Assembly (NCBI GenBank): GCA_026003195.1
Contig: BPGU01000001.1
Coordinates: 62,001 to 126,000 of the forward strand
Length of the DNA stretch: 64,000 nucleotides
Direction: 5' to 3'
Source of the DNA: Armatimonadota bacterium
GTDB taxonomy: Bacteria; Armatimonadota; HRBIN16
The notes beneath the pieces are model-generated. The model saw nothing but the letters and a program-made list of their open reading frames with translations. It ran no database searches and was not told the origin of the DNA. This document shows, in pieces, positions 4,080 through 62,363 of this stretch. The translations under genes and the position numbers were made by a program. How positions within the stretch are numbered: position 1 is the stretch's first letter; each line of letters opens with the position of its first letter.

Positions 4080-6158
4080 CTAATAATCCTGCCGGCCGTT
4101 CTCCGACCAGTCCTGAACATCTAGACTGCCGATAGTGTAACCATTCCATTCTCCATACAGCTGTGCGAACATCTCTAAGTCGATAGTTGTACACACTTCT
4201 GGCCCTGGAGATTTCCTGCCATACAACCACCATCGCTCTATTGCATAGGGGTCTTCAGGATGAAAACCGAGGGAACGATGCGCGCTTTCGAAATCGCCAG
4301 GAACGCCATCTTCGTCCTTGTCATAGTACTCCCAAACTTTCCTGTTAGGATCCCAAAACCTTGCCCTCTTGTTAAAGGGGCGCCATTCCCCAAACCACTC
4401 GATGTGCTCTGCCGAGAAACCTCTCCATGAGGCAAGCCATAGGTCACGATGGGCAAATTCATGCGCCACCACAGTTGCCAGCCAGTCGATACCAGAGGCA
4501 ATCAAACCGTAGGCTGGCTTCTTGGTGGCTGCGGGAGCGTTTTCATGGGCTGCGAGTATGTTCAAACCAAAGAGGTAGATGCGACCGCGCCAGCTTTCTT
4601 GATATCGGCGCGATCCCGGTGCCCATTCTCCTTTCCAATCAAACACTGCCGACACACCCCCCAGACCCATAAATGGGACAGGTGCATAATAGACGATGTA
4701 GCCGTTCTCCAGGCTGGCGTCTATCTCGTTGAATCTGGGGATAACCGCTCCCCAATGCCCTGGTCGGTTGTCGAACCAGTTCGGTGGATTCCACAGACCG
4801 TCTGCCGAATAGCCTCGCGTGAAATCTTCTATCTCGTCATTGCGGTCGAGTGCAAAAGTGACTGCTCGTGAACGGGACTTGGTGTTTTGGAAACCAAGCC
4901 AGGGGTCTGGGTAGGGAGAGGCAAAGGTCGCTCTCACTTCTATCTCCACACGCCGATGCTCCTCGTCCGGCGATATGGGAAATGTGTCAAATAGTCTGCC
5001 CCTAGGGTCCCCCCACAACCTCCCATTCCACGGCATTTGCAGCCACTCCACATATCGCAGGTACCAAGGTAACGTAGGGGTTGTATCGACCACCCACGCA
5101 AAGTAAACAGAATCCCCAGGATGGAAACCGGAGGTCACCAGTGAAGCACTGGTAGTTCCCCCGACGCCAACCGAATGGCCTGCGATAGTGCGGATAGTTG
5201 GAACCTTCAGCAGGGTCAGGTCGATGGTTACGGACACAGGTGCATCGCGACGAGCCGGGACGTTACTCCAATCGAACACTGTACATTGGATGCGCACTTG
5301 CTGCGAAAATTCATCAAAGATATCAGGGTAGTAGTCTGCTATAAAGTCAGAGCTTGGGCGGGGGTCCACTTCGCCACCGCCTTCCAAGACGTGCCAGAAA
5401 ACACGAAAGTTATTTGACCGTTCACGTTCTTGGTTGACAAAACGCGCAGTGCCGTCGGCTGACACAATAAAAACCTCATCATAGTCAACGACTCTGAGGC
5501 GAAGGGTTATTGGTGTGTAAAAGAAGCTAAACAGCTCGTGCGTCGGCGGCTCGAGGACAGTAACCTGTATAGGACTGCCCTTTCCGTAGCCTCGAGGATG
5601 TACCGGTCTCAAGCGCAGGAAACCGCTATTTCCTGAGGTAACCTGCGCCAGTACATCCCATGGGCCGGTGTCTGGCAAGTGCAAAGTGAACAAGCTTTCT
5701 TCGTCTACTACAAACTCTCTGCAGTACACGACTGGTTGGAAGGCGCTTTGCTTGTAAGCCTCCAAGCGCACAGTGAGAGGTATTCCTCTCCATTCTTGTA
5801 GTTTGAGCATCCCTCGTATCTCATACCCCTCACTCGGTGCAGGCTGTCTGGGCAACGCGGGGTCAAACGGCTCCGCACCCACTGCACCGAAATTGCGCAC
5901 CACGATGCCGTAATCGTACAGCGTCACTTCCAAATCACCGTCCAAATCGGCGCGGGGGTCCCAGTTGGGGTCATTCGGTGTGCTCCCGAAAGCGTTCACC
6001 ACGATGCCGAAGTCCAAGAGGGTCACTTCGTTATCGCCGTCGCAGTCGCCGTTGAGCAGGGTGATGTGCAGGTCTTGCGCTTGCAGGGGAGACGGCAGCA
6101 AGCACAGACTGAAAACTGCCCAGGCGATAAGGGTGGGGTAGAAAAGCGCGATTTGCAA
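4080..6158 (-). CDS. Secreted protein with N-terminal dockerin-like pair and HExxH metallopeptidase-like motif
   Basis: The start is a TTG followed by a clear signal peptide (hydrophobic core, then PLQAQ). GGAGG lies 14 nt upstream, longer than usual, but there is no better in-frame start. Residues about 30-90 carry two dockerin-like EF-hand loops (DGDNEVTLLDFG and DGDLEVTLYDYG). A carboxypeptidase-regulatory-like beta domain follows. Near residue 570 there is HEFAH, the HExxH zinc-binding pattern of metallopeptidases, with further acidic residues downstream. It is the first gene of an apparent operon with two HEAT-repeat genes and has its own consensus promoter. Peptidase activity is inference, as the rest matches no family I recognise. 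Confidence 0.75.
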   Translation of the reverse strand: MQIALFYPTLIAWAVFSLCLLPSPLQAQDLHITLLNGDCDGDNEVTLLDFGIVVNAFGSTPNDPNWDPRADLDGDLEVTLYDYGIVVRNFGAVGAEPFDPALPRQPAPSEGYEIRGMLKLQEWRGIPLTVRLEAYKQSAFQPVVYCREFVVDEESLFTLHLPDTGPWDVLAQVTSGNSGFLRLRPVHPRGYGKGSPIQVTVLEPPTHELFSFFYTPITLRLRVVDYDEVFIVSADGTARFVNQERERSNNFRVFWHVLEGGGEVDPRPSSDFIADYYPDIFDEFSQQVRIQCTVFDWSNVPARRDAPVSVTIDLTLLKVPTIRTIAGHSVGVGGTTSASLVTSGFHPGDSVYFAWVVDTTPTLPWYLRYVEWLQMPWNGRLWGDPRGRLFDTFPISPDEEHRRVEIEVRATFASPYPDPWLGFQNTKSRSRAVTFALDRNDEIEDFTRGYSADGLWNPPNWFDNRPGHWGAVIPRFNEIDASLENGYIVYYAPVPFMGLGGVSAVFDWKGEWAPGSRRYQESWRGRIYLFGLNILAAHENAPAATKKPAYGLIASGIDWLATVVAHEFAHRDLWLASWRGFSAEHIEWFGEWRPFNKRARFWDPNRKVWEYYDKDEDGVPGDFESAHRSLGFHPEDPYAIERWWLYGRKSPGPEVCTTIDLEMFAQLYGEWNGYTIGSLDVQDWSENGRQDY

Positions 6159-31974: not shown

Positions 31975-31981
31975 GAGCAGG

Positions 31982-32064
<83 letters not shown>

Positions 32065-35500: not shown

Positions 35501-35766
35501 AGCCTTCGCAGGTCAACGGCTTCTCGCGCTTGCTTGAAGTAGCTGTAGCCAAACCTTTCCAGGGGCGCTACCTGCCGAGGACGCCTCTCCAACGACATCA
35601 CGTCAGCAGTGTTGTTGGTTGCAGCTGGTTTGACCTCCTGCTCCTGCGTTTGGTTGCTGGAAGGCAGTTGTGCGGGGGAAACCGGTGGTGCAAGCTGTCC
35701 ATTTTGTGCCGGGCATAGTGCACCCAGCAGAAACCAGAAGCCTAGGAACACTCCAACGTTGCGCAC
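32569..35766 (-). CDS. Large polysaccharide export protein with multiple SLBB domains (Wza-like)
   Basis: I use the GTG at 35766, seven nt after AGGAGGAG. It opens a signal peptide (VGVFLGFWFLLGALCPAQ). The 1,065-residue protein has a Pro/Ala/Gln/Thr-rich region at about 80-200 and a Poly_export domain near 250-340 (YQLGPGDLLTLRYW). About seven SLBB-type units with the pattern I-x-G-x-V-x-x-P-G-x-Y follow, for example IDGAVDQPGNY, IRGAVQKQGTY, IDGAVQSPGTY and LRGAVKEPGPY. Wza itself is about 380 residues, so this is a much extended version. It should span the periplasm and outer membrane for exopolysaccharide export, and glycosyltransferase genes lie just across the promoter region. Confidence 0.88.
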   Translation of the reverse strand: MRNVGVFLGFWFLLGALCPAQNGQLAPPVSPAQLPSSNQTQEQEVKPAATNNTADVMSLERRPRQVAPLERFGYSYFKQAREAVDLRRLYFQMLLQGTLQVSPLPTQRPEQTALSEQQKVAGQTEAQGATESTSAQGATPQAKSAAPAGTTTQQASPPGQAGVTTPGSVTPQPRTGTPATPAETAGATPPGGIPQPGFLWQQIPGSPYLNMPYQLPSATSTPFVLPPADALKNFVGPDAMLWMNVMMPAPERYQLGPGDLLTLRYWSETLEPREVTLRIDQQGAVNLPMGGRVVARGQTLQQLEETVRKALSRVIRNVQVTLTLRELRTMTVIIAGEAYAPGSYQMPAVANLFNALYACGGPSDNGSLRRIQLKRADGSVHTFDFYRFLLYGDGSQDVPLQPGDVIFIPPVEVQVSVSGEVHRPAIYELLPEERLRDAIGFAGGVKPSGVAQRVAVTSVRPGEARQLIDANLLESGEQNNPPLYDGDSVEVYSIRPVFANIVTIDGAVDQPGNYALTPGMTVADLVERARGLLEDAYTDRADLFRTNPDNTQTLIPVALAQALQRDPQANVPLQRRDRLVVYAIKDVEWMGDRRVQIRGAVQKQGTYYRADNMRVQDLLLQAGGVLPNAYIERAFLQRRNPDGSYGPLLAIDLRKAMLNDPEHNVPLQDRDMLMVYTREQAQFTPENVVTIDGAVQSPGTYPRAENMRLADLIRLAGGPLPEAATRVEIAKARKPIGTPPIEVRLAEALQGVESQNPLLEDGDVVTVRARGDFRLKPLTVYLRGAVKEPGPYTLQAPVERLSDIVKRAGGLLDTAYPQAARLMRRPDQVISDLQKTLTGRILQVLKIVNEEEYRRALARSDVERVRFAAGLTQPTLAIPSSATALLGQSASSTTSPGKIAEAASLFTRDLVSQARPLKEEDLLPAGNVRIDLVTALQKPGSTADVEVRDGDIIYVPEKPTTVAVTGAVVVPSAVLHVPGKSVGYYIEYAGGFTSDAARDKTLVIRANGEVLPAQKVRTVELGDIIFVPTRVMAERLHDRQAEIDAAIRSITTGAIVFRLIETLVK

Positions 35767-35807
35767 GCTGCTTCTCCTCCTGTAACGATGTTCAGGTTTG
35801 CCTTCAC

Positions 35808-35837
35808 AGTATATCACGCCGCTGCGGGGTTCGTCAA
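35808..35837 (-). promoter_or_regulatory. Promoter of the SLBB export gene
   Basis: On the minus strand TTGACG (35837-35832) and TATACT (35813-35808) are separated by 18 nt, about 40 nt before the GTG start. Confidence 0.65.
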
Positions 35838-36267: not shown

Positions 36268-39200
36268 ATGCCCACCACTCCATGGGATGACTTTATCCCT
36301 TACTCGGCACGCGATATGCAAGAGTTCACTTCTGCCGGTGCCGACGGCGCTGTGATTCAGCGGATACGCCTGGAGCGTGACCGGCAGGCGTTGTATACGG
36401 CAGATGTATTCCTATACCACTGGCGGCTGAAGCGCCGTATGGTGTGGCAGTTCATCGCCGTCCATATCCGTGATGGGCATCTCCATCTGGATTTCCCCAC
36501 GCCATTTCAGTGCCTGGATGAAGGATGGAAGGGGCTGGTTACCCATGCTTTCCTCACCGGGTTGCAGGCAATGATGGCAAAAGCGGAGGCAGCGCAAAGT
36601 CTTATCCTCCATGTGGACTTTCCGGTGCCGGAGGACGTGCCCCCGCTGGGTGGTGGTGGTGAAAACAGGGTGGCGCCGGGCTTTGCCTGGAACGAGTTGT
36701 ACATCCATAGTGCGAAACGCTATCTCTTCGCTGCCGAAAGGACGCAGGGACTGCGGGTGCTGGACCTGGGCTGTGGAACCGGCTACGGTGCGAAGATACT
36801 GGCTCGGCAGGCTGCACAGGTCGTGGCAGCAGACGTCGACGACTACCCCCTGCACTACGGCGAGGAGACCTATCCAGATGAAAAGATCCAGCGCGTGCGT
36901 ATCGCACCGATTAGCAACATACAGGGGTTGCCCTTTAAGGACGGTTCCTTCGATGCGGTGGTGAGTTTTGAAGTCATTGAGCACGTGCCAGTGGCGCAGA
37001 TGGAGGCCTTCTTTGCCGAGATCGCCCGCGTGCTCCAGCCGGAGGGCGTGGTGGTTCTCTCTACGCCCAACAAGCATGTGTACATCCACTACCCCGACCC
37101 TTACCACGTCTCGCTGATGACGTTAGAGGAGTTCCGTCGGCTGCTGGAGAGCCGATTTCGTCACGTGCAGCTTTGGGGGCAGGTGCGCTCGCGGCAACTA
37201 CCGCATACATCGATGGAGTTCGACATCGTTCCAGAGACGGATGACGGGCAGGAGATTTACCTCGCGGTATGCCGGGAGTATGTCGGGGACGCGCGAGCGA
37301 TCGCTCTGCCACCACCTACGGTCTGGGAGACCTCGTCGCCTGAAGAGACGCTTGCGCAGGGACGACTGCCTGTTAGCGTGATCGTGCATACGCGCAATGA
37401 GGAGCGCAACATCGCCGAGTGTCTGGAGTGCGTCAAGGATTGGGCGGGCGAGATTATCGTGATGGACATGGAAAGCACTGACCGCACGGTAGAGATTGCC
37501 CGGCGCTATACCGACAGGGTCTATCATCACCCGCTCCTCCACGACTTTGACCTCGCGCGCAATGCCAGCGCATCACATGCCCATTATGACTGGATTCTTT
37601 ATGTAGACGCTGACGAGCGCGTGCCACGTGCGCTGGTAGATGCACTGGAACAGATGTTGCCCCAGCTGGACAGCGAGGTGGCAGCGGTTCAGCTCACCTA
37701 TAAGAACTACTTCTTGGGCAAGTGGATACGCCATGCAGGGCAGTGGTACCCGGGTTATAAAGCACCGATGTTGTTGCGCAAGGGCAGATTTGAGTGGCTG
37801 GGAGCGGCACATGAGGGAGTGAGAGTTTGGGGCAAAGTCGTTCTCTTTCCGCCTGACAACCCCGACTGTGCTATCGAACACCACTCGATGCCTACGCTGG
37901 AACACTACATGCGTAAGCTGAACCACTATTCGCAGAGCGCAGCGCAGCAGATGCGGGATGAACGTGCTCCCTGCTCGTGGCAGACGCTTGCCGCAGCAAT
38001 GGGCTGTGCTTTCCGCTTCTATTACGACGAGACGCAGGGCTATCGGGACGGTGCGCACGGTTTTCTGCTTTCTGTCTGTGCGGCGATGAGTGCGCTCGCT
38101 GACCAGATCCGCTACGCCGAACTGCGCCTGCGCGAAGGTTGGGAAGGAAATAACCTGTTGCCTACCAGCGCAGAAGAGTTTTTCCGGTTCGCTGCAGACG
38201 TGGCGGCGGGCAGGGTGCAGGTGGTGCAGAAGAAACTATCCCACATCCTGTCTTTTTCCGATGGCGAAACGGCAATGTCACCTCCGCCTTTGTGGTGGAG
38301 CCGCTTGTGGCAACGACTTCAGCGGGAGCCGGCAGGGACGATAGCGCTCCTCGGCATGGCAGGGGACGAATTGCCCGGTGACGGCTGGAGCAGGGCATCG
38401 GAAGACGAACAGGCAGACGCGCTGATTGTGTTTGGCGCGGGGTGGCGCGAGGCGGTACACAGGCTCCGTGATGGAGGCAGCTTCTTCATCGGTGTGCCGG
38501 CTTTCCCGCAAAACCCGCAGGCGTGGCGCGAAGAGATAGAACACGCCTTTGGCGCAACAGTACATCTGATGGACCCAGAGAGCAGCTGCCAGTGGCTGTT
38601 CGCCTTTGGCTGGAAAGGGCAGCGGGTAGAGCCGGTGCGTCGCCGGGTGCTCATGACTACCCACCAGCGTGCGTTCGAGATGCTGGGCGGTGGCGAAACG
38701 CAGCTTTTCGAAACGCTGCTGGCGCTTAGAGAGCAAGGGATAGTGGCAGATGTGTCGGTATCCCTGCGCCTGCCGGAAGAGCCTTACGACCTGATTCACG
38801 CCTTCAGCCTGTATCATGCGGACAAAATAGAGCATCTGGAGCACACCGAAAAGCCTCTGGTTGTTTCCACCATCTTCCGCGATAACGCGGCGTTCTATCC
38901 AGTAACTGTAGGCGCGGCGGTCTTCCGGCAGCGGGAGCCATCGCAGGTAGAGGAGGCTTTGCGAGCGTGGAAAGCGGGGCGGTTGCACGTGCAGGGCGTA
39001 GACCCTGCGTCGCTGGATGAACCGGAAGACTTGAAGCGCATCAAGCAACGTGTGGTGCAGCGAGCGCAGATATTGTTGCCCAACTGCCGATGGGAGCTCT
39101 CGGCGTTGCGCAGGTACTTCCGGCTGGGCTACAAACCAGCTCAGTTAGTACCCAACGCGGTCCACCCGGAGAAATTCATCCGGGCGACCCCAGATGCCTT

Positions 39201-40068
39201 TGTCCAGCGTTTCGGCTTGCGCGATTTTGTGCTCTGTGCCGCACGCATCGAGCCGTTCAAGAACCAGCTCATGTTGATCTGGGCGCTGCGAGGCACGAGA
39301 GTGCCTCTGGTGCTGGCGGGCAAAGTCTCCGAGCCGGAATACGGTGCACTGTGCCAGCGATGGGCAGGGGAGAACGTGCACTTCGTGGGCGAGCTCTCGC
39401 CCGATCTGTTAGCCAGCGCGTACGCAGCGGCGCGAGTACACGCCATGCCCTCGTGGGCGGAGACGCCCGGCTTGACGAGCATGGAAGCCGCGCTTGCCGG
39501 TTGTGCGGTTGTAGTGGGCAATCAGGGGGCGGAGCGGGAATACTTTGGGGATTTCGCTTACTACTGCAACCCCGCCGATGTGGATTCGGTGCGTGAGGCG
39601 GTGCTGAAAGCGTGGGAGGACCGTGACCTTGCAAAGCGTGAGGCGTTCCGCGAGTACATCCTGAAGCACTACACATGGTCCGAGACGGCACGGGTAACCG
39701 CACAGGCGTACGACCAGGTGCTACAGGCACAAAAAACTGTTCTGTCTGTGCCTGACTGGAACGAACCACCAACATGGCAACCCGTAGTGTACGAGTATCT
39801 TCGGGAGCATCAGCCGGGTGATGGCGCGCTACTGCAGTTGTACGCGGGCACACTGAACGACTTCAGCGCGGAAGACGCATACGCATTGCTGGCGCAGTAC
39901 ATAGTGTCGCTGGGCTACGACCCCGAACATTGTGCAGATATCGAGATTATCGACCATTTACCCGAAAACTTTTTGGGACGGGTGCTGCTGACGGGTAGCC
40001 GCTACGATACCATCGTGCTCACCCGATACGGCAGTCAGTGCGAGCATTTGCAGAAAAGGGCAGCTTGA
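36268..40068 (+). CDS. Giant methyltransferase - GT2 - GT4 fusion protein
   Basis: The 1,266-residue protein has no signal or membrane segment. Residues about 1-120 are unassigned. A class I methyltransferase covers about 125-345 (VLDLGCGTGYGAKIL at 163, FDAVVSFEVIEHV, LQPEGVVVLSTPNKH). A GT2 domain covers about 366-590 (VSVIVHTRNEERNIAECLE, MDMESTDRT, LYVDADERVP). A degenerate, possibly methyltransferase-like segment lies at 690-790. A GT4 domain covers about 791-1150 (RIEPFKNQLMLIWAL, HAMPSWAETPGLTSMEAALAG). About 100 unassigned residues end the protein. It likely builds part of the polysaccharide exported by the SLBB protein. AGGAGCAC precedes the ATG. Confidence 0.85.
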   Translation: MPTTPWDDFIPYSARDMQEFTSAGADGAVIQRIRLERDRQALYTADVFLYHWRLKRRMVWQFIAVHIRDGHLHLDFPTPFQCLDEGWKGLVTHAFLTGLQAMMAKAEAAQSLILHVDFPVPEDVPPLGGGGENRVAPGFAWNELYIHSAKRYLFAAERTQGLRVLDLGCGTGYGAKILARQAAQVVAADVDDYPLHYGEETYPDEKIQRVRIAPISNIQGLPFKDGSFDAVVSFEVIEHVPVAQMEAFFAEIARVLQPEGVVVLSTPNKHVYIHYPDPYHVSLMTLEEFRRLLESRFRHVQLWGQVRSRQLPHTSMEFDIVPETDDGQEIYLAVCREYVGDARAIALPPPTVWETSSPEETLAQGRLPVSVIVHTRNEERNIAECLECVKDWAGEIIVMDMESTDRTVEIARRYTDRVYHHPLLHDFDLARNASASHAHYDWILYVDADERVPRALVDALEQMLPQLDSEVAAVQLTYKNYFLGKWIRHAGQWYPGYKAPMLLRKGRFEWLGAAHEGVRVWGKVVLFPPDNPDCAIEHHSMPTLEHYMRKLNHYSQSAAQQMRDERAPCSWQTLAAAMGCAFRFYYDETQGYRDGAHGFLLSVCAAMSALADQIRYAELRLREGWEGNNLLPTSAEEFFRFAADVAAGRVQVVQKKLSHILSFSDGETAMSPPPLWWSRLWQRLQREPAGTIALLGMAGDELPGDGWSRASEDEQADALIVFGAGWREAVHRLRDGGSFFIGVPAFPQNPQAWREEIEHAFGATVHLMDPESSCQWLFAFGWKGQRVEPVRRRVLMTTHQRAFEMLGGGETQLFETLLALREQGIVADVSVSLRLPEEPYDLIHAFSLYHADKIEHLEHTEKPLVVSTIFRDNAAFYPVTVGAAVFRQREPSQVEEALRAWKAGRLHVQGVDPASLDEPEDLKRIKQRVVQRAQILLPNCRWELSALRRYFRLGYKPAQLVPNAVHPEKFIRATPDAFVQRFGLRDFVLCAARIEPFKNQLMLIWALRGTRVPLVLAGKVSEPEYGALCQRWAGENVHFVGELSPDLLASAYAAARVHAMPSWAETPGLTSMEAALAGCAVVVGNQGAEREYFGDFAYYCNPADVDSVREAVLKAWEDRDLAKREAFREYILKHYTWSETARVTAQAYDQVLQAQKTVLSVPDWNEPPTWQPVVYEYLREHQPGDGALLQLYAGTLNDFSAEDAYALLAQYIVSLGYDPEHCADIEIIDHLPENFLGRVLLTGSRYDTIVLTRYGSQCEHLQKRAA

Positions 40069-40110
40069 GCCGTTCGTGGGAGCAGACTATCTGCAGGGAG
40101 GCTGAGAACA

Positions 40111-43100
40111 ATGAAACAGGCAGAACGTGAACCGCTTCATATCGTCTGGGAAGGGGCTTTTCTGGCGAGGCACAGCCTTGCGCTGGTGAACAGAGAACTG
40201 GTCACCGCACTGCATCGGCTGGTACCGGAGTGGCAGTTCTATCTGGTGCCGCATCCCACGGATGACGGCGTGCTGCGCGGCGATCCTCGCTGGAAGTTTA
40301 TCGAGGAGCGCATGCGCCGTCTGCCCAGCCATGTCGACGTATGGGTGCGCCACCACTGGCCGCCCAACTGGCAACGCCCGAACACCGAGCGGTTCATCGT
40401 GATTCAGCCCTGGGAGTTCGGTTCTGTTCCCGCAGAATGGGTGGATGCGATCAACCGTAATGTGGATGAGCTGTGGGTGCCCTCTACCTTCGTGCGGGAG
40501 TGCTACGTGCGCGATGGCGTGCAGCCGGAAAAAGTGGTGGTGGTTCCGAATGGCGTTTCCGAGAGCTTCTTCGAACCCGTTGCGCCGATGGAACTGCCCA
40601 CTCAGAAGCGTTTTCGCTTCCTGTACGTCGGGGGCACGATACCCCGGAAGGGCATCGATATCCTGCTGGACGGCTACACACGCACCTTCACCCGTTCCGA
40701 TGATGTGGTTCTGGTCATCAAAGATTTCGGCACGAACACCTTCTATCGCGGGCAGAACTATGTGGAGCAAATCCGCTGGTTCCAGCAGCAACCAGACGTA
40801 CCTGAAATTATCTACATCGCCGACGAGCTGGACGAAGGGCAGATGAACGCGCTGTACCGCGCCTGCCATGCACTGGTGCATCCTTATCGCGGTGAGGGCT
40901 TCGGTTTGCCGATTGCGGAGGCGATGGCGTGTGGTCTGCCGGTCATTGTCACCGGCTTCGGCGCGGCGATGGACTTTTGTAACGAGGAACGAGCCTTCCT
41001 CATCCCTGCAGGCGTGGAGTATTTCCCGGATAACTTGATTGGCGATATGGAGACGGTGAACCGCCCGTTCTGGGCAAAGCCCGAACGCAACGCGATGGAA
41101 GCGCTGATGGAGCAGGTGTACCGCGACAACGAAGGCGCGAAAGCGGTTGCCGAGCGCGCTGCCCAATGGGTACGCGAGAACCTCACCTGGGATCGCGCTG
41201 CGCAGATAGCGCTGGAAAGGCTGTCTCATAGTATCCAAAGCTCTTCCAGTGAGGATGCGGAGTCCGTTATCTATCGCGCCGCCGAGTGTGTGGCGCAGGA
41301 AGATTATGACGAGGCGATCGTGCTGCTGGAGAGGCTGATTCGTGAACAGCCACAACAGCTCAAGGCATATTGTGGACTGGGCGTGGCTTACTTTCAGGCA
41401 GGCAGCATCGCCCGGGCGGAGGGCGTTCTGCGGCAGGGGCTACAGGTGGGCGAAGATTTTGAACTGCACTATCACCTGGCATACATTCTTCTGCAAACCG
41501 GTCGCTCGCAAGAGGCGCTCCGTCATGCCATCCGCGCAGTGGAGCTGAATCCGGAATGCGAGGAGGCGATAGGCCTGCTGCGTGGGCTATATACCAAGCT
41601 GCAAAAGCGTTCTCTGAAGCGCGGCAAACACGCTTTGCACAACGAGTTACAGCGGGCAAGTCGCCTGCTGCAACAAGGCGGTACTGCCGCATCACCTGCG
41701 CCCTCTATCAGCCAGGCTGCGGCATCCCGTGCCACAGGCGCAAAGAAAGCGCATCCTGCGATCTCTCTGTGCATGATTGCCAGAGATGAAGAGGCGTTCA
41801 TCGAGGATTGCCTCCAGAGTGTGCAGGGGCTGGTAGATGAGATTGTGCTGGTGGACACTGGCTCCACCGACCGCACGGTGGAAATCGCTCAGCGGTATGG
41901 TGCGAAGGTCATACATCACCCCTGGCGAGATGACTTCTCGGAAGCCCGCAACGTGTCGCTGCAGCACGCTACCGGAGACTGGGTGCTGTGGCTGGACGCC
42001 GATGAACGGCTGGATCGGGGAAGCGCGGAAGCTATCCGAAACGCCATTCGCGACCCGCAGTTTGCCGGTTACCTCGTGGAGATTGTGAACGAGGTGGGCG
42101 ACCAGCAGAGCAGTAGCACCTTCGTGCACCGCGCCTGTCGTCTGTTCCGTCGTCTGCCGGTCACACGCTTTGAGGGGCGTATCCACGAACAGGTAGTGCC
42201 CTCGCTGGAGCACAACGGCTATGAGGTTGCGTATCTGAAGGGGGTGCGTATTCGGCACCTCGGTTACCGACAGGACATCGTTGCCCAACGGCGCAAGCAC
42301 GACCGCACTATCCGTATGCTGCGTGAGGAGGTGCAAAAGAACCCCGAGGACCTGTTCCAGAGGTTCAATCTGGGCAACGCCTACTACGTCGCCGGGCAGT
42401 ATGAGCAGGCGGTGCGTGAGCTGGAACCGATTGTGGACCGGATAGAGCCTCACGCCGACCACGCCTCCGTCGGCTACGTGTTGCTGGCGAACGCCCTGTA
42501 TCCTCTGGGGCAGTACGAGAAGATACTGCAGGTGCACGAGCGCGCCCTGCGTCGTGGCATTGACCACCCGGGCTTGTACTTCGCAGACGGTTATGCCTAT
42601 CTCTCCCTGCGCCGCTACGCCGAATCGGTAGAAGCCTTCCAGAAGGCGATAGCGGCACGCGATGACGACCGATTTGTCAGCGGGGACACCAGCATCAGCG
42701 GCTTTAAGGCATATTACGGGCTGGCTCAGGCTTATCTGGGGCTAGAGCAGCTGGAGCAAAGCGAAGCGGAGTGCCGTCGTGCGCTGGCGGAGCTGCCGAC
42801 CTTCGCGGAGGCACGCTATCTGCTGGCGCAGTTGTTGTTTGCCAGGGGCGAAACCGCGCTCGCACTGAAAGAGCTGGAGCAGGCGCATTGGGACGCACCG
42901 CACCATCCTGAAATTGCCCGTGAGCTGGCGGTGCGCTACGAGGAGGCGGAGCGCTGGGCGGATGCCTATGCGATATGGCGCAGGCTGGTGAGCGCGTCTC
43001 AGAACAACGCAGAGTACCGCTGGCACAGTGCAACCTGCGCGGAGAAGCTGAACCTGTGGCACGAGGCGCAGGCAGATTACACCGAGCTGACGGTGGTGCA

Positions 43101-43476
43101 CCCACAGTTCGCGCCGGCGTGGGTGAATCTGGGCAGGGTGCATCTGGCACAGGGCGATTACGAGGGCGCGCTCTCTTGCTTCACCCGCGCCATTGAGCTG
43201 AACCCTGAAGACGCCAACGCCTTCTTCAACGCAGGAGACGTACTGTACCAGCTGGGCGCATACGAAGCCGCCGCAGAGACCTATACCGCCGGATTACAGC
43301 GCGACCCGCATAATGCGCAGGGGTTCTTCACGCTGGGCAACGCCTACTTCCAGATGGGCGCGTACGAAGCGGCAATGATGGCGTTCCAGCAAGCGCTCGC
43401 ACTGCAGCCTGACCACTACCCCGCTCGCCACAACCTGGAGCTGGTCAAAGAGCAGATGAAAGGGCGGGTGGCTTAG
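40111..43476 (+). CDS. GT4 - TPR - GT2 - TPR multidomain glycosyltransferase
   Basis: The 1,121-residue protein follows the previous giant gene by 42 nt with a GGGAGG-type ribosome site. A GT4 glycosyltransferase fills about residues 8-385 (VVVVPNGVSESFF, LYVGGTIPRKGIDILL, HPYRGEGFGLPIAEAMACGLPVI, the last block given in part). A TPR stretch covers about 385-490 and a linker reaches to 545. A GT2 domain lies at about 549-740 (SLCMIARDEEAFIEDCL, VDTGSTDRTVEIA, WLDADERL). TPR repeats then run to the end (AWVNLGRVHLAQGDYEGAL, AFFNAGDVLYQLGAYEAA). TPRs probably hold partners or organise the two catalytic modules. Likely same pathway as the preceding gene. Confidence 0.87.
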   Translation: MKQAEREPLHIVWEGAFLARHSLALVNRELVTALHRLVPEWQFYLVPHPTDDGVLRGDPRWKFIEERMRRLPSHVDVWVRHHWPPNWQRPNTERFIVIQPWEFGSVPAEWVDAINRNVDELWVPSTFVRECYVRDGVQPEKVVVVPNGVSESFFEPVAPMELPTQKRFRFLYVGGTIPRKGIDILLDGYTRTFTRSDDVVLVIKDFGTNTFYRGQNYVEQIRWFQQQPDVPEIIYIADELDEGQMNALYRACHALVHPYRGEGFGLPIAEAMACGLPVIVTGFGAAMDFCNEERAFLIPAGVEYFPDNLIGDMETVNRPFWAKPERNAMEALMEQVYRDNEGAKAVAERAAQWVRENLTWDRAAQIALERLSHSIQSSSSEDAESVIYRAAECVAQEDYDEAIVLLERLIREQPQQLKAYCGLGVAYFQAGSIARAEGVLRQGLQVGEDFELHYHLAYILLQTGRSQEALRHAIRAVELNPECEEAIGLLRGLYTKLQKRSLKRGKHALHNELQRASRLLQQGGTAASPAPSISQAAASRATGAKKAHPAISLCMIARDEEAFIEDCLQSVQGLVDEIVLVDTGSTDRTVEIAQRYGAKVIHHPWRDDFSEARNVSLQHATGDWVLWLDADERLDRGSAEAIRNAIRDPQFAGYLVEIVNEVGDQQSSSTFVHRACRLFRRLPVTRFEGRIHEQVVPSLEHNGYEVAYLKGVRIRHLGYRQDIVAQRRKHDRTIRMLREEVQKNPEDLFQRFNLGNAYYVAGQYEQAVRELEPIVDRIEPHADHASVGYVLLANALYPLGQYEKILQVHERALRRGIDHPGLYFADGYAYLSLRRYAESVEAFQKAIAARDDDRFVSGDTSISGFKAYYGLAQAYLGLEQLEQSEAECRRALAELPTFAEARYLLAQLLFARGETALALKELEQAHWDAPHHPEIARELAVRYEEAERWADAYAIWRRLVSASQNNAEYRWHSATCAEKLNLWHEAQADYTELTVVHPQFAPAWVNLGRVHLAQGDYEGALSCFTRAIELNPEDANAFFNAGDVLYQLGAYEAAAETYTAGLQRDPHNAQGFFTLGNAYFQMGAYEAAMMAFQQALALQPDHYPARHNLELVKEQMKGRVA

Positions 43477-43901: not shown

Positions 43902-44287
43902 TAACTGGCTGCGCAAAGCAGAGAACGACTTACAGACCGGCAACAATGAGCTGGGCAGGGACGACCCCATCACGGATACGGTGTGTTTTCACATGCAGCA
44001 GTGCTGTGAAAAGTACTTGAAGGGCTTCCTTATCTTTCACGGCAAGGAGGTTCCTTGCACCCACTCCCTCGCAGCACTGATAGCAAGGTGTGCTGGAGAT
44101 CGATGTGGATTTTCTCAGCTTGCATCAGCTGGACGTAGATCATCTCACTGACTACGCGGTAACCATTCGTTACGGTGATGACTTTTACATGCCTTCTGTA
44201 GAAGAAGCTGAACGTGCTTTGCAGATTGCTGAACAGGTTCGTGAGTTCGTGCGCTCCAAACTGGCGCAGTCCGGTTTCGAAGGATGA
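43882..44287 (+). pseudogene. HEPN-domain gene with a frameshift
   Basis: The first frame starts at 43882 and gives NIDTVSNWLRKAENDLQTG, then CFHMQQCCEKYLKGFL and THSLAALIARC. The second frame carries VLEIDVDFLSLHQLDVDHL, then DYAVTIRYGDDFYMPS to the stop at 44287. Together they are a normal HEPN protein of about 133 residues, with the break near 44085-44095 (two bases missing or one extra). In the HEPN family the RxxxxH motif forms the RNase site; no such motif is obvious here, and the RYGDDFY block is the usual C-terminal hallmark. The defect may be real decay or a sequence error. The stop overlaps the queG start. Confidence 0.72.
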
Positions 44288-45336
44288 ATCAGCACAGTAT
44301 CAGCAACGCCATCCGCGCCCATGCCCTCTCGCTCGGTTTTGACCTGGTGGGCTTCGCGCCAATACTCCCCCCTGCGCACGCGCTCTTCTTCCGCAAATGG
44401 CTGGAGCAGGGATTTCACGGCGAGATGGCATACCTTGCCCGCACTGCCGACGCCCGATGTGACCCGCAACAGGTACTGCCCGGCGCGAAAAGTGCGGTGG
44501 TGGTCGGTCTGAACTATGCACCCGCTGTCTCACCTGGGACCGACGACCCTTCTCGCGGTGTGTTCGCCCGCTATGCGCTGGGGGAGGACTACCATCCGGT
44601 GATGGAGCAAAAGTTGGGGCAACTGCTGCAGTTTATCCGTCAGCACTATCCCGAGTGCCGCGCGAAGATTTACGTGGACGCCGGACCGGTGTTGGAGCGT
44701 GACCTTGCCTGGCGAGCGGGGCTGGGCTGGTTCGGCAAGAATACCATGTTGATCAACACCTATCGTGGTTCGTATTTCTTGCTGGGCGAAATCCTGCTGG
44801 ACGTGGAGCTGGAGTACGACCATCCGGCGTTCGGTGGCTGTGGCAAGTGCAACCGGTGTATCGAGGCGTGCCCAACGGGAGCGATTGTCGCCCCGTACGT
44901 GCTGGATGCGAGGCGATGCATCAGCTATCTCACCATCGAGCTGCGCGGCTCCATCCCGGAAGAGATGCGCTCGAAGATGGGCAACCGTATCTTTGGCTGT
45001 GACATCTGCCAGGAGGTGTGTCCCTTCAACCAGCCTCGTCCCCATGCCCCACTGCGTTCCGCCCCCACTGCTGAACCCCGCTTCGCCCCGCGCGAGGTGA
45101 CTCTGACACCGAAGTTGGTAGACCTGTTGCGCATGAGCGAAGAGGAGTTTCGCGTCGCTTTTCGCAACAGCCCTGTCAAACGCGCCAAATGGCGAGGCTT
45201 CCGGCGTAACGTCGCGGTCGCGCTGGGCAACAGCAAAAACCCTGAGGTGTTACCCGTGCTCCAGCAAGAACTGCAGCGCGAAACCGACCCAACAGTGCAC
45301 GAGCACCTGCAGTGGGCGATAGAGCGGTGTCGCTAA
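44284..45336 (+). CDS. queG: Epoxyqueuosine reductase QueG
   Basis: QueG reduces epoxyqueuosine to queuosine in tRNA, using cobalamin and two [4Fe-4S] clusters. The 350-residue product has the N-terminal GFDLVGFAP, the cobalamin-domain block DAGPVLERDLAWRAGLGWFG (in part), a first cluster motif [16 protein letters not shown] and a second CDICQEVCPFN. A HEAT-like C-terminal part follows, including RAKWRGFRRNVAVALGN. The length is typical. The ATG overlaps the HEPN stop, so expression may have been coupled to that pair; the gene ends in a 4-nt convergent overlap with the PA14 protein gene. Confidence 0.93.
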   Translation: MNQHSISNAIRAHALSLGFDLVGFAPILPPAHALFFRKWLEQGFHGEMAYLARTADARCDPQQVLPGAKSAVVVGLNYAPAVSPGTDDPSRGVFARYALGEDYHPVMEQKLGQLLQFIRQHYPECRAKIYVDAGPVLERDLAWRAGLGWFGKNTMLINTYRGSYFLLGEILLDVELEYDHPAFGGCGKCNRCIEACPTGAIVAPYVLDARRCISYLTIELRGSIPEEMRSKMGNRIFGCDICQEVCPFNQPRPHAPLRSAPTAEPRFAPREVTLTPKLVDLLRMSEEEFRVAFRNSPVKRAKWRGFRRNVAVALGNSKNPEVLPVLQQELQRETDPTVHEHLQWAIERCR

Positions 45337-48056
45337 TCCTCTCCAACCTTCCCGAAGTTCCGGACCAGGATGCCGAAGTCAAATAGCGTGACCTCTTCAT
45401 CACCGTCCAAATCGGCATTGGGGTTCCAATTGGGATCGCCAGGCACAGAGCCGAAGGCAGCGACCAGCGCCCCAAAGTCGAAGAGACTGACTTCGTTGTC
45501 ATCATCGATATCGCCGTTGGTGAGGCTCAAGCGCAAGGGAGCGGTGAGCGGAAAACGCACGCCATGAAGCGTCTTCCTCAGCCAGTGAGAACCTTTCAGG
45601 CTCACCTCATACACACCCGGCGGGATAGAGACGGGTATACGGAAACGTCCCTGCTCATCCAGCACCACGTTGAAGCTGCTGGTACCCACACGCATCTGCA
45701 GAACGACGTTCTGAGGAGAGGCTATCCAGTCTTCCAGGGTGACCTCGCCATCGTAGAGCAGACTCAATAGTTGCCAGTTCAGCCGGGCAGTAGCGGTGTC
45801 GCCCTCCTCGAAGTATTCCACCACGATACGGTGCACCCCTTCGCTGAGGGTACGCTCCAAGGTGTAAGTGGTATCCGCTTGTGCGAACCATTTATCCAGC
45901 ACGCTCACGCCGTCTATCCAGATTCGCATTCCATCATTCGTGGTGGCGGTGAATCGGTAAGTGCCGGGCGCGAAGTACCAGTCTCCTGTCCAGCGCGCGC
46001 TGAAGCCATCACCGGGCAGGGCAGGGTCAGGCGAGCCATGCTGGTAAGCATAGTCTATGCGGGTCTCCAGACGACTGGTCAGGTAGCCTTGCAGGTCTCT
46101 GGTGGTATAGTAATCTGCTCTCCATGCGTTCAGCGGCACCTCGGCAGGAGGGGGTTCATCTGCCCAGCTTACCTGCACCCGCGCGGTACCCGTGCGGTGT
46201 CGGTAGCGCACCTGCACGCGGTGGTACTCTCCTTGCGGAGCCGATTGCCCAGGCACGACGTAAGGTGCGTCTCGGGTGGTATAGATAATCGGCGTCCACG
46301 TTTGCAGCTCTGTGTTCTCCCAGGCGTCGAAGACGAGCCTGTCATCGATAATCAGCTGTATTCCACCGTCGGCGGTGATAGTCCATTTCTTCCAGCCTTC
46401 GGTAAAGCGGAAATTGCCCAGCCAGTACACGCTGAAGTGATCGGCATCGACACCGGGGGCGGGCGAGCCGCTCCAAGTAAACTGGATAGTGTTGTCCGTT
46501 CGGTAGCGCACAAAGGTCTGGAAGTTATCGCCGTTGAAGTAATTGCCTCGCCAGCGGTCGCGGGGCACGGTCACGGGATTGTCGCGCAGGTCTATCTGGC
46601 GGAGATAATAACCGTGCACGGGCGACTGTCCGGGTGGCGCCATCCAACGCTGCAGGTTAAAGTCGGTGACCTCCTGAAAGAGGAAGTAGGTTTGCCCGCG
46701 ATGCCGCAGACGCAGGATGAGGACACCATTGGAGATACCGTATGTATGGCGAATGCGGTCGCCAAACGCATCGGGTGCCAGGTGAATGAAGCCGTTATCG
46801 TCGGTGACAAGGCTGAGGTCGGGCACGTTGTCGTAGAACTTACCGTACCAGGTGGGGTAGTTCGTTGCCCGAAAGATGTCCACCTGTGCCCCGACGATGG
46901 GCACACCGTTCTGGTCCACGAACTGGATATGGTTGACATCAGGCAGGTCATTCAGAAAAACGCCGATGTCGGGCGGCGCGTTCATGTTGCCCCTGCCGCG
47001 CTTGTGGTGCTTCCAGTTCCACGCGGCGGTGCTGTAGGCATTGTAGAAAGGCGCGCCTCCCATGATGTCGCCCCACTTGTTGTAATAGACCGCTTCCCAG
47101 GCGATAAAGGGCATCAGTGCGGTACCCGCCACAAGGTTGCCGCTCTCGTCGGTAATCTGAATGGGCAGCGGCTGTCCGGTGGCGGCTGCTTGATGGACAT
47201 CGAAACCATAGAGGTCTATGTGATAGCGTGCGTGGTTCATTTCGTGGATGCTACCGAAGTCGATGAAGAAGGGTCCATTCCAGCGGAAGCCATAGAAGCC
47301 GTCTGGCTGGATGTCTTCAGGATGATAAGGATAGCCCCACTGCATGTCCACCGTGCGGTCACGGGCGTCCGGGTTATTGGTCGGTAATCCGCCTGCAAGG
47401 GGCAGTGCGCCATCGGGCACAACCACTACCTTATCCAGCGCCACTCTGTCCAGTGCGCCGTGGGGAGAGACGGGGTAGACCGCTTTGGCGAGCCACTCGT
47501 TCCAGCGGCGAATCATACGCTGTCCCCAGTCCTCAAAGCTGTTTGCACCGTCATTCAGCAGATACTGGTTGTTGTGGAAGTAGTTGTACAGACTCTGTTC
47601 CACCCACAAGCCTACCAGCAGGGCGTTGGTGCGAATGGACACGCGATTGTTCAGCCTCGAAATTTCCTCCAGCGTGCCCGCAGGATCGGCGCGGAACTCC
47701 AGCGTGTGGTCTGCATTCTCCCAGTACCACTCGTAGGGTACTGTGACCTCTTGTCCCGGCTGGATCGTGACCACCCCGGATGCCGCCAGCGCGCCGTCGA
47801 ACCACCACTCGTAAGGCACGGACACAGGCTCCGTGCCCCAGTTTTTGACGTGGGCGAAGTAGGTAACCTGCTGCCCGGGAGCCGGAAGTCCGCTGGTGTA
47901 ACTCATGTCGTTAGGGTCAAAGGCAAGACGCGGCGTGCGCTCAATGTAGAGCACGTCCACATCGGGCAGGAAGTTGGTTATCGGAACCTGTGCGTATATA
48001 GGATAGACGAGGACAAGCCATACGGCACAGACGATGAGAAATTGCAAGAGTCGCAT
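45333..48056 (-). CDS. Secreted CARDB - HExxH - PA14 x2 - dockerin-like protein
   Basis: The ATG at 48056 opens a signal peptide (LLQFLIVCAVWLVLVYPIYA). Within 907 residues there is a CARDB-like domain at about 50-150 (VTYFAHVKNWGTEPVSVPYE). A region with HEMNH near residue 275 (HExxH, followed by ARYHID) looks like a zinc-peptidase site. Two PA14 domains lie at about 500-600 and 640-770 (WRGNYF..., WRADYY...). A carboxypeptidase-regulatory-like strand domain comes next, and a C-terminal pair of dockerin-like loops (DDDNEVSLFDFG, DGDEEVTLFDFG) ends the protein. PA14 domains bind carbohydrate. Peptidase activity is inferred from one motif. Confidence 0.8.
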   Translation of the reverse strand: MRLLQFLIVCAVWLVLVYPIYAQVPITNFLPDVDVLYIERTPRLAFDPNDMSYTSGLPAPGQQVTYFAHVKNWGTEPVSVPYEWWFDGALAASGVVTIQPGQEVTVPYEWYWENADHTLEFRADPAGTLEEISRLNNRVSIRTNALLVGLWVEQSLYNYFHNNQYLLNDGANSFEDWGQRMIRRWNEWLAKAVYPVSPHGALDRVALDKVVVVPDGALPLAGGLPTNNPDARDRTVDMQWGYPYHPEDIQPDGFYGFRWNGPFFIDFGSIHEMNHARYHIDLYGFDVHQAAATGQPLPIQITDESGNLVAGTALMPFIAWEAVYYNKWGDIMGGAPFYNAYSTAAWNWKHHKRGRGNMNAPPDIGVFLNDLPDVNHIQFVDQNGVPIVGAQVDIFRATNYPTWYGKFYDNVPDLSLVTDDNGFIHLAPDAFGDRIRHTYGISNGVLILRLRHRGQTYFLFQEVTDFNLQRWMAPPGQSPVHGYYLRQIDLRDNPVTVPRDRWRGNYFNGDNFQTFVRYRTDNTIQFTWSGSPAPGVDADHFSVYWLGNFRFTEGWKKWTITADGGIQLIIDDRLVFDAWENTELQTWTPIIYTTRDAPYVVPGQSAPQGEYHRVQVRYRHRTGTARVQVSWADEPPPAEVPLNAWRADYYTTRDLQGYLTSRLETRIDYAYQHGSPDPALPGDGFSARWTGDWYFAPGTYRFTATTNDGMRIWIDGVSVLDKWFAQADTTYTLERTLSEGVHRIVVEYFEEGDTATARLNWQLLSLLYDGEVTLEDWIASPQNVVLQMRVGTSSFNVVLDEQGRFRIPVSIPPGVYEVSLKGSHWLRKTLHGVRFPLTAPLRLSLTNGDIDDDNEVSLFDFGALVAAFGSVPGDPNWNPNADLDGDEEVTLFDFGILVRNFGKVGED

Positions 48057-59461: not shown

Positions 59462-62293
59462 CTAATCGTCCCCTATCTCGCCGAAGTTGCGCACCAGCAC
59501 GCCAAAGTCAAATAGCGTCACCTCGCCGTCACCGTCCAGGTCCGCACGAGCATCCCAGTTCCCATCACCAGATGTACTGCCGAACGACGCCACCAGCCTG
59601 CCGAAATCAAACAGCGTCACCTCGTTGTCGCCGTCAATGTCGCCGTTGGTGAGCCCAACCATCAACCCCAGCACACTGCCCCCGCTGGTGTCCACCTCCA
59701 CCGTACGACGCAGGTAACTCAACGGCTTCACCGACAGCGCAAACTGCCCCACCGGCACTCCCGGCACCACGAAACCGCCGTCGGGGTCCAGCAGCAGCGA
59801 GCGCTTGTGCACATCACCCGCACGTATCTCCCAGTCCACGAACAGCGGCAGGCTTGCCCCAAAATCGTTGAACAGCAGGTAGCCCTGCACGATGGGCGGG
59901 TGAAACTCGTCCGCGCCGATGTCCACCGTGCCGTTGCCGATGCGCGCCTCGCCGTCCATGTCGGTGTCGGTGCTCACCACGCTGTTGTCTCCCCTGTCGA
60001 TGCAGGGCGAGCCGGGCAGCAGGTGTCCCGCCACCAGCAGCGGGTCTGCGAAGATATTGCCGTCCCTGCCGATGGGGTTGCTGATGTTTCCCTGGAAGTT
60101 ATAGGGCATGTTTCCCCACACGCAGTTGTGGCGGAAATCGGACAGGGCAGGGGCGGAGATACCGCCTCCTGCATTGAAGGCAAGGATAGTGTTGCGCACC
60201 CGCGTGCTGGTGCTGCTCGTCCAGATGCCTCCGGCATTATCCGCCATGTTGTCAATGACCGTGCACCCTGTCAACGTCGGGGAGGAGGACCACCAGCAAT
60301 ACACCCCGCCACCGTCTCCGGAAGCGCGGTTGCCCGAGAGGGTGCACCCTGTCAACGTCGGGGAGGAGTTGTACGAGCAAGACACCCCGCCACCGCCGGA
60401 GGCGCGGTTGTAGGCGATAGTGCACCCTGTCAACGTCGGGGAGGAGTTGTACGAGCAAGACACCCCGCCACCGTCGTAAGTAGCGCTGTTGTAGGCGATA
60501 GTGCACCCTGTCAACGTCGGGGAGGAGTTGTCCCTGCAATACACCCCGCCACCGGAGGAAGCGCTGTTGCCCGAGAGGGTGCACCCGCTCAACGTCGGAG
60601 AGGAGTTATACCAGCAAGACACCCCGCCACCGGAGGAAGCGCTGTTGCCCGAGAGGGTGCACCCGCTCAACGTCGGGGAGGAGAACGAGCAACACACCCC
60701 GCCACCGTCTCCGGAAGCGCTGTTGCCCGAGAGGGTGCACCCGCTCAACGTCGGGGAGGAGGACGAGCAATACACCCCGCCACCGGAGGAAGCGCTGTTG
60801 CCCGAGAGGGTGCACCCGCTCAACGTCGGGGAGGAGGACGAGCAACACACCCCGCCACCGTAGGAAGCGCGGTTGCCCGAGAGGGTGCACCCGCTCAACG
60901 TCGGAGAGGAGGACGAGCAATACACCCCGCCACCGTAGTTGGAAGCACTGTTGCCCGAGAGGGTGCACCCTGTCAACGTCGGGGAGGAGTTATACCAGCA
61001 AGACACCCCGCCACCGTAGGAAGCGCTGTTGCCCGAGAAGGTGCACCCGCTCAACGTCGGAGAGGAGTGGTCGTAGCAAGACACCCCGCCACCGTAGTTG
61101 GAAGCACTGTTGCCCGAGAGGGTGCACCCTGTCAACGTCGGGGAGGAGTTATACCAGCAAGACACCCCGCCACCGTAGGAAGCGCTGTTGCCCGAGAGGG
61201 TGCAATCTGTCAACGTCGGGGAGGAGTAGTCGTAGCAAGACACCCCGCCACCGCTGTTGTTGGCAATGGTGCACCCTGTCAACGTCGGGGAGGAGGAGTA
61301 GCAATACACCCCGCCACCGGAGGAAGCGCTGTTGCCCGAGAGGGTGCACCCTGTCAACCTCGGGGAGGAGTTGTAGCAATACACCCCGCCACCGGAGGAA
61401 GCGCTGTTGCCCGAGAGGGTGCACCCGCTCAACGTCGGGGAGGAGTAGTCGTAGCAAGACACCCCGCCACCGTAGCGAGCGCTGTTGCCCGAGAGGGTGC
61501 ACCCGCTCAACGTCGGGGAGGAGGACGAGCAATACACCCCGCCACCGTCGTCGGAAGCGCGGTTGTCCGAGAGGGTGCACCCGCTCAACGTCGGGGAGGA
61601 GTTGTAGCAAAACAACCCTCCACCATAGCGAGCGCTGTTGCCCGAGAGGGTGCATCCGCTCAACGTCGGGGAGGAGTTGTAGCAATACACCCCGCCACCG
61701 TAGCGAGCGCGGTTGCCCGAGAGGGTGCACCCTGTCAACGTCGGGGAGGAGTTGTTGCAATACACCCCGCCACCGTCTTTGGAAGTGCTGTTGTTGGAAA
61801 TGGTGCAGTTTGCCACCGTGAGCAGGTTCGCACTGGAGGTCAGGTATAATCCCCCACCATACTCTGCACTGCCGTTGCGGATGGTGAAACCATCCAGCCG
61901 ATAGGCGCGGTTGGCGGTAGTGGGCGAGGTGACCACACTGCCCCCCTGACCACCGTCCAGAACGGTCTCATACGGGTCAAAATATGGACGAGGGAAAGTG
62001 GGACGTTCCGAGAGGCTGCTCTCAGTGCCCCGGAAGCCGCCATACAGCGCAACGCCGTTCTGGAGGGTGATGCGCTCCTGATACAACCCATAGCGCACCC
62101 ATATCTGGTCGCCGGGCAATGTCGTCCGTAACGCAGCGGTCACCGTGCGCTTCGCCGTCGCCCAGGAGAGACCGTCCTGCAGGTCATCGCCCTGGGGGGA
62201 GACATACACCACTTTCGCGAACAGGGGACTGCTCATGCCCAGCAGGATGAGGCACAACATGCTTATCCATCCGTAGTGCCCAGACCTTTTCAC
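59462..62293 (-). CDS. Secreted Pmp-like beta-helix protein with C-terminal dockerin-like pair
   Basis: Of two close GTG codons I choose 62293, 8 nt after AGGAGG; it opens a signal peptide (ISMLCLILLGMSSPLFA). Residues about 25-130 begin the parallel beta-helix (VVYVSPQGDD, DGLSWATA, YGGFRGTESS). Then about 21 units of roughly 23 residues run to about residue 690, with the consensus SSPTLSGCTLSGNSAS-x-GGGVYC. These contain the GG[AG]-hydrophobic and S-x-N elements of Chlamydia-type polymorphic membrane proteins. A regulatory-like beta domain and two dockerin-like loops (DGDNEVTLFDFG, DGDGEVTLFDFG) end the 943-residue protein. It is probably a surface adhesin or polysaccharide-binding protein. 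Confidence 0.85.
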   Translation of the reverse strand: MKRSGHYGWISMLCLILLGMSSPLFAKVVYVSPQGDDLQDGLSWATAKRTVTAALRTTLPGDQIWVRYGLYQERITLQNGVALYGGFRGTESSLSERPTFPRPYFDPYETVLDGGQGGSVVTSPTTANRAYRLDGFTIRNGSAEYGGGLYLTSSANLLTVANCTISNNSTSKDGGGVYCNNSSPTLTGCTLSGNRARYGGGVYCYNSSPTLSGCTLSGNSARYGGGLFCYNSSPTLSGCTLSDNRASDDGGGVYCSSSSPTLSGCTLSGNSARYGGGVSCYDYSSPTLSGCTLSGNSASSGGGVYCYNSSPRLTGCTLSGNSASSGGGVYCYSSSPTLTGCTIANNSGGGVSCYDYSSPTLTDCTLSGNSASYGGGVSCWYNSSPTLTGCTLSGNSASNYGGGVSCYDHSSPTLSGCTFSGNSASYGGGVSCWYNSSPTLTGCTLSGNSASNYGGGVYCSSSSPTLSGCTLSGNRASYGGGVCCSSSSPTLSGCTLSGNSASSGGGVYCSSSSPTLSGCTLSGNSASGDGGGVCCSFSSPTLSGCTLSGNSASSGGGVSCWYNSSPTLSGCTLSGNSASSGGGVYCRDNSSPTLTGCTIAYNSATYDGGGVSCSYNSSPTLTGCTIAYNRASGGGGVSCSYNSSPTLTGCTLSGNRASGDGGGVYCWWSSSPTLTGCTVIDNMADNAGGIWTSSTSTRVRNTILAFNAGGGISAPALSDFRHNCVWGNMPYNFQGNISNPIGRDGNIFADPLLVAGHLLPGSPCIDRGDNSVVSTDTDMDGEARIGNGTVDIGADEFHPPIVQGYLLFNDFGASLPLFVDWEIRAGDVHKRSLLLDPDGGFVVPGVPVGQFALSVKPLSYLRRTVEVDTSGGSVLGLMVGLTNGDIDGDNEVTLFDFGRLVASFGSTSGDGNWDARADLDGDGEVTLFDFGVLVRNFGEIGDD
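60245..61790. repeat. Tandem DNA repeat coding for the beta-helix units
   Basis: About 20 copies of a 63-75 nt unit, many almost identical. On the plus strand each has the core TGCACCCGCTCAACGTCGGG, or the TGTCAACGTC variant, and ACACCCCGCCACCG. Copy lengths are multiples of three, so copy number can change without breaking the frame. Confidence 0.85.
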
Positions 62294-62363
62294 TATCACC
62301 GCCTCCTTTCATCCAATCTCTTTTCCCTTTGGGCTACGGAAAGACAACATGAGCTTTCACTTC

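Follow-up and report, generated by a model that had tools for sequence, protein, structure and literature searches.

Three secreted proteins encoded in one 64,000-nucleotide stretch of an Armatimonadota genome (G000:C1:62001-126000, hereafter the window; the host genome, 4.58 Mb in size, carries the code G000) were found to share a tag made of a beta module and an EF-hand pair, which is almost certainly an X-module/type II dockerin dyad (X-Doc). Such dyads are chiefly familiar as the link between cellulosomes and Gram-positive cells. In G000, we consider it reasonably likely from sequence comparisons that the tag would anchor its proteins non-covalently at the surface or in the matrix, held by a lineage-specific receptor that is bound in two orientations. 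Named relatives include HRbin16, Chthonomonadia bacterium Ch118 and Armatimonadetes bacterium RSWS16.

Tagged proteins in the window

The motif NGD-x-D-x-DNEV-x-L-x-DFG ... D-L-DGD-x-EVTL-x-D-x-G ... VRNFG occurs within the window in exactly three proteins, all encoded on the minus strand: a PA14 protein, a beta-helix protein and the product of the open reading frame (ORF) at 4080-6158. Copies were scored with Pfam Dockerin_1 (PF00404, family cut-off 22.9 bits) and with our own hidden Markov model (HMM), which was built from 40 C-terminal tags of G000 and has the PA14 and beta-helix copies, and not the 4080-6158 copy, among its rows. The tagged proteins and their parts are:

45333..48056, minus strand: secreted PA14/CARDB protein of 907 aa (ORF; N-terminal signal peptide MRLLQF...YAQ, C-terminal X-Doc tag)
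45768..46112, minus strand: best-scoring PA14 domain of the PA14 protein (Pfam PF07691, residues 649-763)
45516..45764, minus strand: X-module of the PA14 protein tag, a carboxypeptidase-regulatory-like beta sandwich with an SHWLR motif (own HMM, 87.5 bits)
45336..45515, minus strand: type II-like dockerin at the C-terminus of the PA14 protein, with two calcium-loop/helix repeats (own HMM, 110.7 bits)
59462..62299, minus strand: secreted right-handed beta-helix protein with a C-terminal X-Doc (Pfam Beta_helix, 224 bits; Dockerin_1, 24.9 bits)
59903..60025, minus strand: choice-of-anchor Q domain of the beta-helix protein, directly upstream of its tag (NCBIfam NF041518, 35.9 bits, residues 759-799)
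59645..59899, minus strand: X-module of the beta-helix protein tag (own HMM, 56.4 bits)
59465..59644, minus strand: dockerin of the beta-helix protein tag (own HMM, 102.6 bits)
4080..6158, minus strand: secreted protein with an N-terminal dockerin and reversed module order, one of 6 N-terminally tagged proteins in the genome
5871..6050, minus strand: N-terminal dockerin right after the signal peptide (...SPLQAQ-DLHITLLNGDCDGDNEV...; Dockerin_1, 27.2 bits; own HMM, 95.7 bits)
5556..5825, minus strand: tentative X-module-like beta domain behind the N-terminal dockerin (hhalign to the X-module profile)

Against Dockerin_1, the PA14 copy scored 20.1 bits, just under the cut-off, and the other two copies exceeded it. 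As our own HMM gave 96–111 bits for all three, the recurrence of the motif is not a matter of chance, and the tag that a preliminary description had assigned to these proteins is confirmed at the three dockerin loci. That description also placed a small beta domain beside each copy, which holds for the PA14 and beta-helix proteins. For the 4080-6158 protein, where the order is reversed, the X-like nature of the beta domain is moderately supported by sequence comparison: our own HMM did not match it, and hhalign against the X-module profile gave a probability of 70 (E 4e-5). An AlphaFold2 (AF2) model of this reversed dockerin-X unit, made from a shallow alignment, reached a pLDDT of 59.9 as a whole and about 80 in the strands. 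The N-terminal dockerin of this protein recurs in three near paralogues (63–65% identity over the first 173 residues past the signal peptide). Another N-terminally tagged protein (L042) has a clear X-module with the SHWLR motif after its dockerin, that is, the dyad in reverse.

Besides PA14 (84 bits), the PA14 protein matched Dockerin_1, CarboxypepD_reg and CARDB in Pfam. By eye, it and the 4080-6158 protein contain HExxH zinc-peptidase-like motifs (HEMNH and HEFAH, respectively), with no Pfam peptidase match. The PA14 gene converges with an ORF on the plus strand (44284-45336), and the stop codons of the two overlap by 4 bases (45333-45336).

Identity of the tag

When a profile of the 40 aligned C-terminal tags was compared with the PDB, it matched the X-Docs of cellulosomal scaffoldins with both modules aligned (E 1e-13 to 3e-12). 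The best matches were those of Acetivibrio cellulolyticus ScaA (E 1e-13), CipA (1.5e-13) and CipB (2.3e-13), with entries 4wi0, 2b59 and 5k39 at E 1e-13 to 2e-13 aligned to query residues 37-149. The PA14 protein alone, used as a phmmer query against the PDB, also found the XDoc of CipB (5k39_B, E 2.6e-4) with both modules covered. An AF2 model of the tag (pLDDT 94.2, pTM 0.84) has seven strands followed by the dockerin helices, the X-module strands lying at residues 13-90 of the 152-residue PA14-protein tag. The ten best PDB matches to the model in Foldseek were all X-Doc type II dyads (TM 0.71–0.81 over the whole tag). From these profile and fold matches it follows that the "regulatory-like beta domain" of the preliminary description is an X-module, and its SHWLR motif aligns with NYLKR/NYLTR/TYLDR of known X-modules.

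The calcium-ligand positions of the dockerin (1, 3, 5 and 12) are intact in both loops of the PA14 protein. Across G000, Asp or Asn occupies them in both loops of 40/40 copies, and the same is true of nearly all copies in seven other genomes. The tag thus agrees with the X-Doc family in each feature examined: an X-module packed on the dockerin in the predicted fold, two F-hand loops and homology across both modules.

Genome-wide distribution of the tag

Dockerin_1 had 54 matches in G000, of which 51 were judged genuine loci after reading; the tag is therefore not restricted to the three proteins of the window. These loci comprise 40 C-terminal X-Docs, 6 N-terminal dockerins, 2 half-dockerins, 1 diverged copy (C3:74830) and 2 fragments. 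In the 40 C-terminal tags, a beta module of about 85 residues directly precedes the dockerin, and 6–10 residues, ending in GDE or similar, follow the dockerin match. The N-terminal dockerins (4080-6158, L042, L059, L060, L062 and L066) stand at the mature N-terminus behind the signal peptide. The half-dockerins (C3:329701-329766, L073; C3:427968-428033, L071) are single EF-hand repeats at a protein end and may be decaying copies; both of these proteins are encoded about 1 kb from a gene for a fully tagged protein.

Signal peptides were judged by a simple heuristic and by eye. The heuristic found a Sec signal at 43/51 loci, and reading by eye found one at 6 of the other 8, the last 2 being the fragments, so that all tagged proteins except these fragments look Sec-secreted. 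The carriers have unrelated bodies, among them beta-helix, HAF-repeat, propeller, subtilase and PA14 types, and there is no glycoside hydrolase among the 25 most shared of their 90 Pfam families. This is the pattern of a sorting class: the same tag at one end of many unrelated Sec-secreted proteins. Among 201 sampled Armatimonadota genomes, 18 were tag-rich (at least 15 tags), and the other tag-rich genomes carry 15–95 tags each.

Exchange with PEP-CTERM sorting signals

G000 also contains PEP-CTERM proteins (26 matches at E <= 0.1) and two exosortases, which are expected to serve them. A HAF-repeat protein with a PEP-CTERM end (C1:733.9-734.7 kb) and a tagged HAF protein have 66% identity across 347 aa. 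Their alignment breaks off precisely at the junction, YLLDT, after which the first protein continues with VVPEPASW and the second with the X-module. In a second pair, encoded by tandem homologous genes (C3:74134-75786; 31% identity, E 4e-15), one protein has a PEP-CTERM end and the other the diverged dockerin end. To judge from these two paralogue pairs, the X-Doc tag appears interchangeable with a known surface-sorting signal. In addition, four tagged proteins match the choice-of-anchor Q domain, which adjoins the tag in beta-helix proteins; this NCBIfam family is named for bodies found with different anchors. Taken together, the paralogue pairs and the choice-of-anchor Q domain indicate that the tag is a functional alternative to the sorting signal. 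A sorting enzyme serving the tag specifically was not identified in G000.

Contact positions of the dockerin

In the X-Doc of CipB, alanine at Phe124, Leu147 or Phe148 abolishes binding to the type II cohesin ScaE6, and specificity is set by a Gly/Asn position at the helix end (PMC5141474). By alignment, Phe124 corresponds to F113 of the tag, Leu147/Phe148 to L136/F137 and the Gly/Asn position to G114/G147. These residues are conserved in G000 (F113, L136, G114 and G147 in 40/40 copies each; F137 in 36/40), and tag-rich Armatimonadota outside G000 have other residues at the equivalent positions.

We compared repeat 1 with repeat 2 at 22 dockerin positions in 176 tags from 8 genomes. Positions 9, 10, 11, 14 and 17 have the same residue in both repeats within a genome and differ between genomes (exact permutation p 2.5e-5 to 5e-5), and positions 13, 16, 18 and 21 are symmetric and lineage-specific likewise, more weakly. 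At positions 2, 6, 15, 19 and 22, repeat 1 and repeat 2 of a given genome disagree. For the contact positions 10, 11, 14, 17 and 21 combined, the match was 0.77 within and 0.19 between genomes (exact permutation p = 2.5e-5, with the caveat that eight genomes are few), and the p-value was also the lowest possible with one genome per family and with five genera of one family. The consensus faces are LFGVG (G000), IGASG (G098), IALRG (G104), IFLSD (G156), VLDID (G119), SSDVG (G147) and N-x-S-A-G (G040); in G190, position 11 is variable. Whole-repeat gene conversion was considered as a source of the symmetry and rejected because the symmetric positions are interleaved with positions 2, 6, 15 and 19, which are repeat-specific in the sampled lineages. 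Dual-mode binding is considered to depend crucially on the helices being symmetric in sequence (PMC8063739), and the symmetric, lineage-specific contact residues fit a lineage-specific partner that is bound in two orientations.

Proposed mechanism and alternative explanations

In the mechanism we propose, tagged proteins would be exported by Sec, and the dockerin, with calcium in both loops, would fold against its X-module. The dyad would then plug non-covalently into a lineage-specific receptor outside the cell, and could do so in two orientations related by a turn of 180 degrees; this receptor could be a strongly diverged cohesin or something doing the same job. As a result, the cell would present dozens of proteins with unrelated bodies (beta-helices, HAF-repeat proteins, propellers, subtilases and PA14 proteins) at its surface or in its extracellular matrix, alongside the covalent route that G000 has in PEP-CTERM and exosortase. 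The conserved ligands and homology suggest calcium binding and surface exposure, and we infer a receptor, two-way binding and surface anchoring. More tentatively, several Armatimonadota lineages may each run a genome-wide, non-covalent display of this kind, with 15–95 X-Doc-tagged secreted proteins, a receptor that is no recognisable cohesin and a docking code of their own written in both repeats.

Several results weigh against this mechanism. No cohesin scored above the PF00963 cut-off in G000, in 10 members of its genus or in the 18 tag-rich genomes; 30/201 of the sampled Armatimonadota have one. A profile made from Armatimonadota cohesins, which recognises PDB type II cohesins such as 2bm3 and 2b59 chain A, had no match in G000; in the remaining tag-rich genomes it gave weak matches, such as G098:C9:270001 (E 0.0016), that were unconvincing by eye. 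The core positions 8, 13, 16 and 20 of the dockerin change symmetrically as well, so part of the symmetry effect may be structural. Moreover, the route from the inner membrane to the outer surface of a diderm cell is left unexplained. A complete cohesin-dockerin system, with a cohesin in the same genome, was accordingly not found in G000. As no cohesin is convincing in the tag-rich genomes, either the cohesin is too diverged to be recognised or its place is taken by a different receptor.

Candidates for a cohesin in G000 were examined and rejected. The sole partial PF00963 match (C2:32043, 16.7 bits) is a DUF11 domain. For an SLH-anchored cohesin, the SLH proteins of G000 were read by eye; they are OmpM-type porins, small SLH proteins and a FAD-dependent-looking enzyme, and no cohesin-like part was recognised in them. 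The OmpM-type proteins include an adjacent pair (C2:1168969 and C2:1171041, L201), each with SLH, coiled-coil and beta-barrel parts, an architecture that points to a diderm envelope with SLH domains as its tether.

The missing cohesin and the symmetric core positions, together with calcium ligands that are intact in nearly all copies, would also suit a calcium-stabilised end cap without a partner, whose role would be to shield the C-terminus of extracellular proteins or to assist its folding. However, a cap needs no cohesin-contact residues that are nearly fixed per genome, differ between genomes and change jointly in both repeats. The tag also takes the place of PEP-CTERM on a 66% identical protein, and we regard the cap as unlikely. 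The N-terminal copies count against it too, as they do against the tag being a secretion signal for an outer-membrane export machine (type II or type IX secretion system-like) with no lasting anchoring role. An export step would indeed be needed in a cell that is apparently diderm (SLH-type outer-membrane porins), nearly all copies lie at the extreme C-terminus like type IX secretion signals, and the tag sequence is highly uniform. The fold, however, matches X-Doc, with no known type IX C-terminal domain among the leading PDB matches, and a pure secretion signal seems decidedly improbable.

The scaffoldin type of the dyads, and a dual-mode symmetry that is typical of several cellulosomes (PMC8063739), raise the further prospect of a true cellulosome-like complex, in which the tagged proteins are assembled into a single particle by a cohesin scaffoldin that exists but escaped detection. 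Neither PF00963 nor the Armatimonadota cohesin profile detected a multi-cohesin protein in G000, and most of the proteins with a tag are propellers, beta-helices or HAF-repeat proteins, with glycoside hydrolases absent from their 25 most shared Pfam families; we find such a particle very doubtful. Non-covalent anchoring thus remains the reading we favour. The preliminary description had proposed a sorting, anchoring or cohesin-like docking system outside cellulosomes, and this is partly supported, by the X-Doc identity, the exchange with PEP-CTERM and the docking-like contact positions; the search for its partner, whether cohesin or dedicated sorting enzyme, came back empty in G000, as did that for cohesins above the cut-off in the tag-rich genomes.

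Comparison with known systems

The tag has the same modules, in the same order and relative arrangement, as the type II X-Docs of scaffoldins (C. thermocellum CipA/ScaA and CipB; A. cellulolyticus ScaA). The two are homologous in sequence across both modules and have in common the Leu-Phe pair and the Phe-Gly at the CipB contact positions. Here, however, the dyad is found on dozens of unrelated small secreted proteins rather than on one or two scaffoldins, the contact residues are the same in both repeats, unlike in C. thermocellum, and no SLH-cohesin anchoring protein was found in G000, whose phylum is diderm. Like PEP-CTERM, the tag is a short C-terminal addition that occurs genome-wide on diverse Sec-secreted proteins; the same bodies carry either, and G000 has both. 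In contrast to PEP-CTERM, it is a folded, predicted calcium-binding dyad without a transmembrane helix or cleavage motif, and so must act non-covalently. The bond between cohesin and dockerin ranks with the strongest known between proteins (PMC8063739).

In the "planctosome" proposed for Nemodlikiaceae (PMC6461901), dockerins likewise occur outside cellulose degradation and an anchoring of secreted proteins was proposed. Cohesins are included there and none is detectable here, whereas the G000 system has the X-module and far more copies. The two half-dockerin proteins, known here from sequence alone, end in a single EF-hand repeat as do the half-dockerins of Ruminococcus flavefaciens (mentioned in PMC8063739). 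Our literature searches returned no text combining dockerin with PEP-CTERM or with choice-of-anchor, and reached no description of this tag system. Four papers mention both dockerin and Armatimonadetes; judged by their titles and term counts, they appear to be surveys of metagenomes or holobionts.

If the proposed anchoring is correct, docking of the cohesin-dockerin type would be a general means of dressing cell surfaces, with X-Doc as a mass tag in a diderm phylum. The long-standing question of dockerins without cohesins also becomes directly testable, by finding what the tag binds. Finally, the lineages offer several naturally distinct plug variants, which might be orthogonal.

Other features of the window

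An rRNA operon lies on the plus strand at 25708-32526, and its 23S gene spans 4596 bases. Within this gene are a group I intron (30779-31045) and two LAGLIDADG endonuclease ORFs (29990-30472 and 31084-31719), which together probably represent two introns with homing endonucleases. Also on the plus strand, two giant fused proteins are encoded at 36268-43476, one combining a methyltransferase with two glycosyltransferase types and the other glycosyltransferases with TPR repeats; they adjoin the gene for a polysaccharide export protein with 7 SLBB domains (32569-35817).

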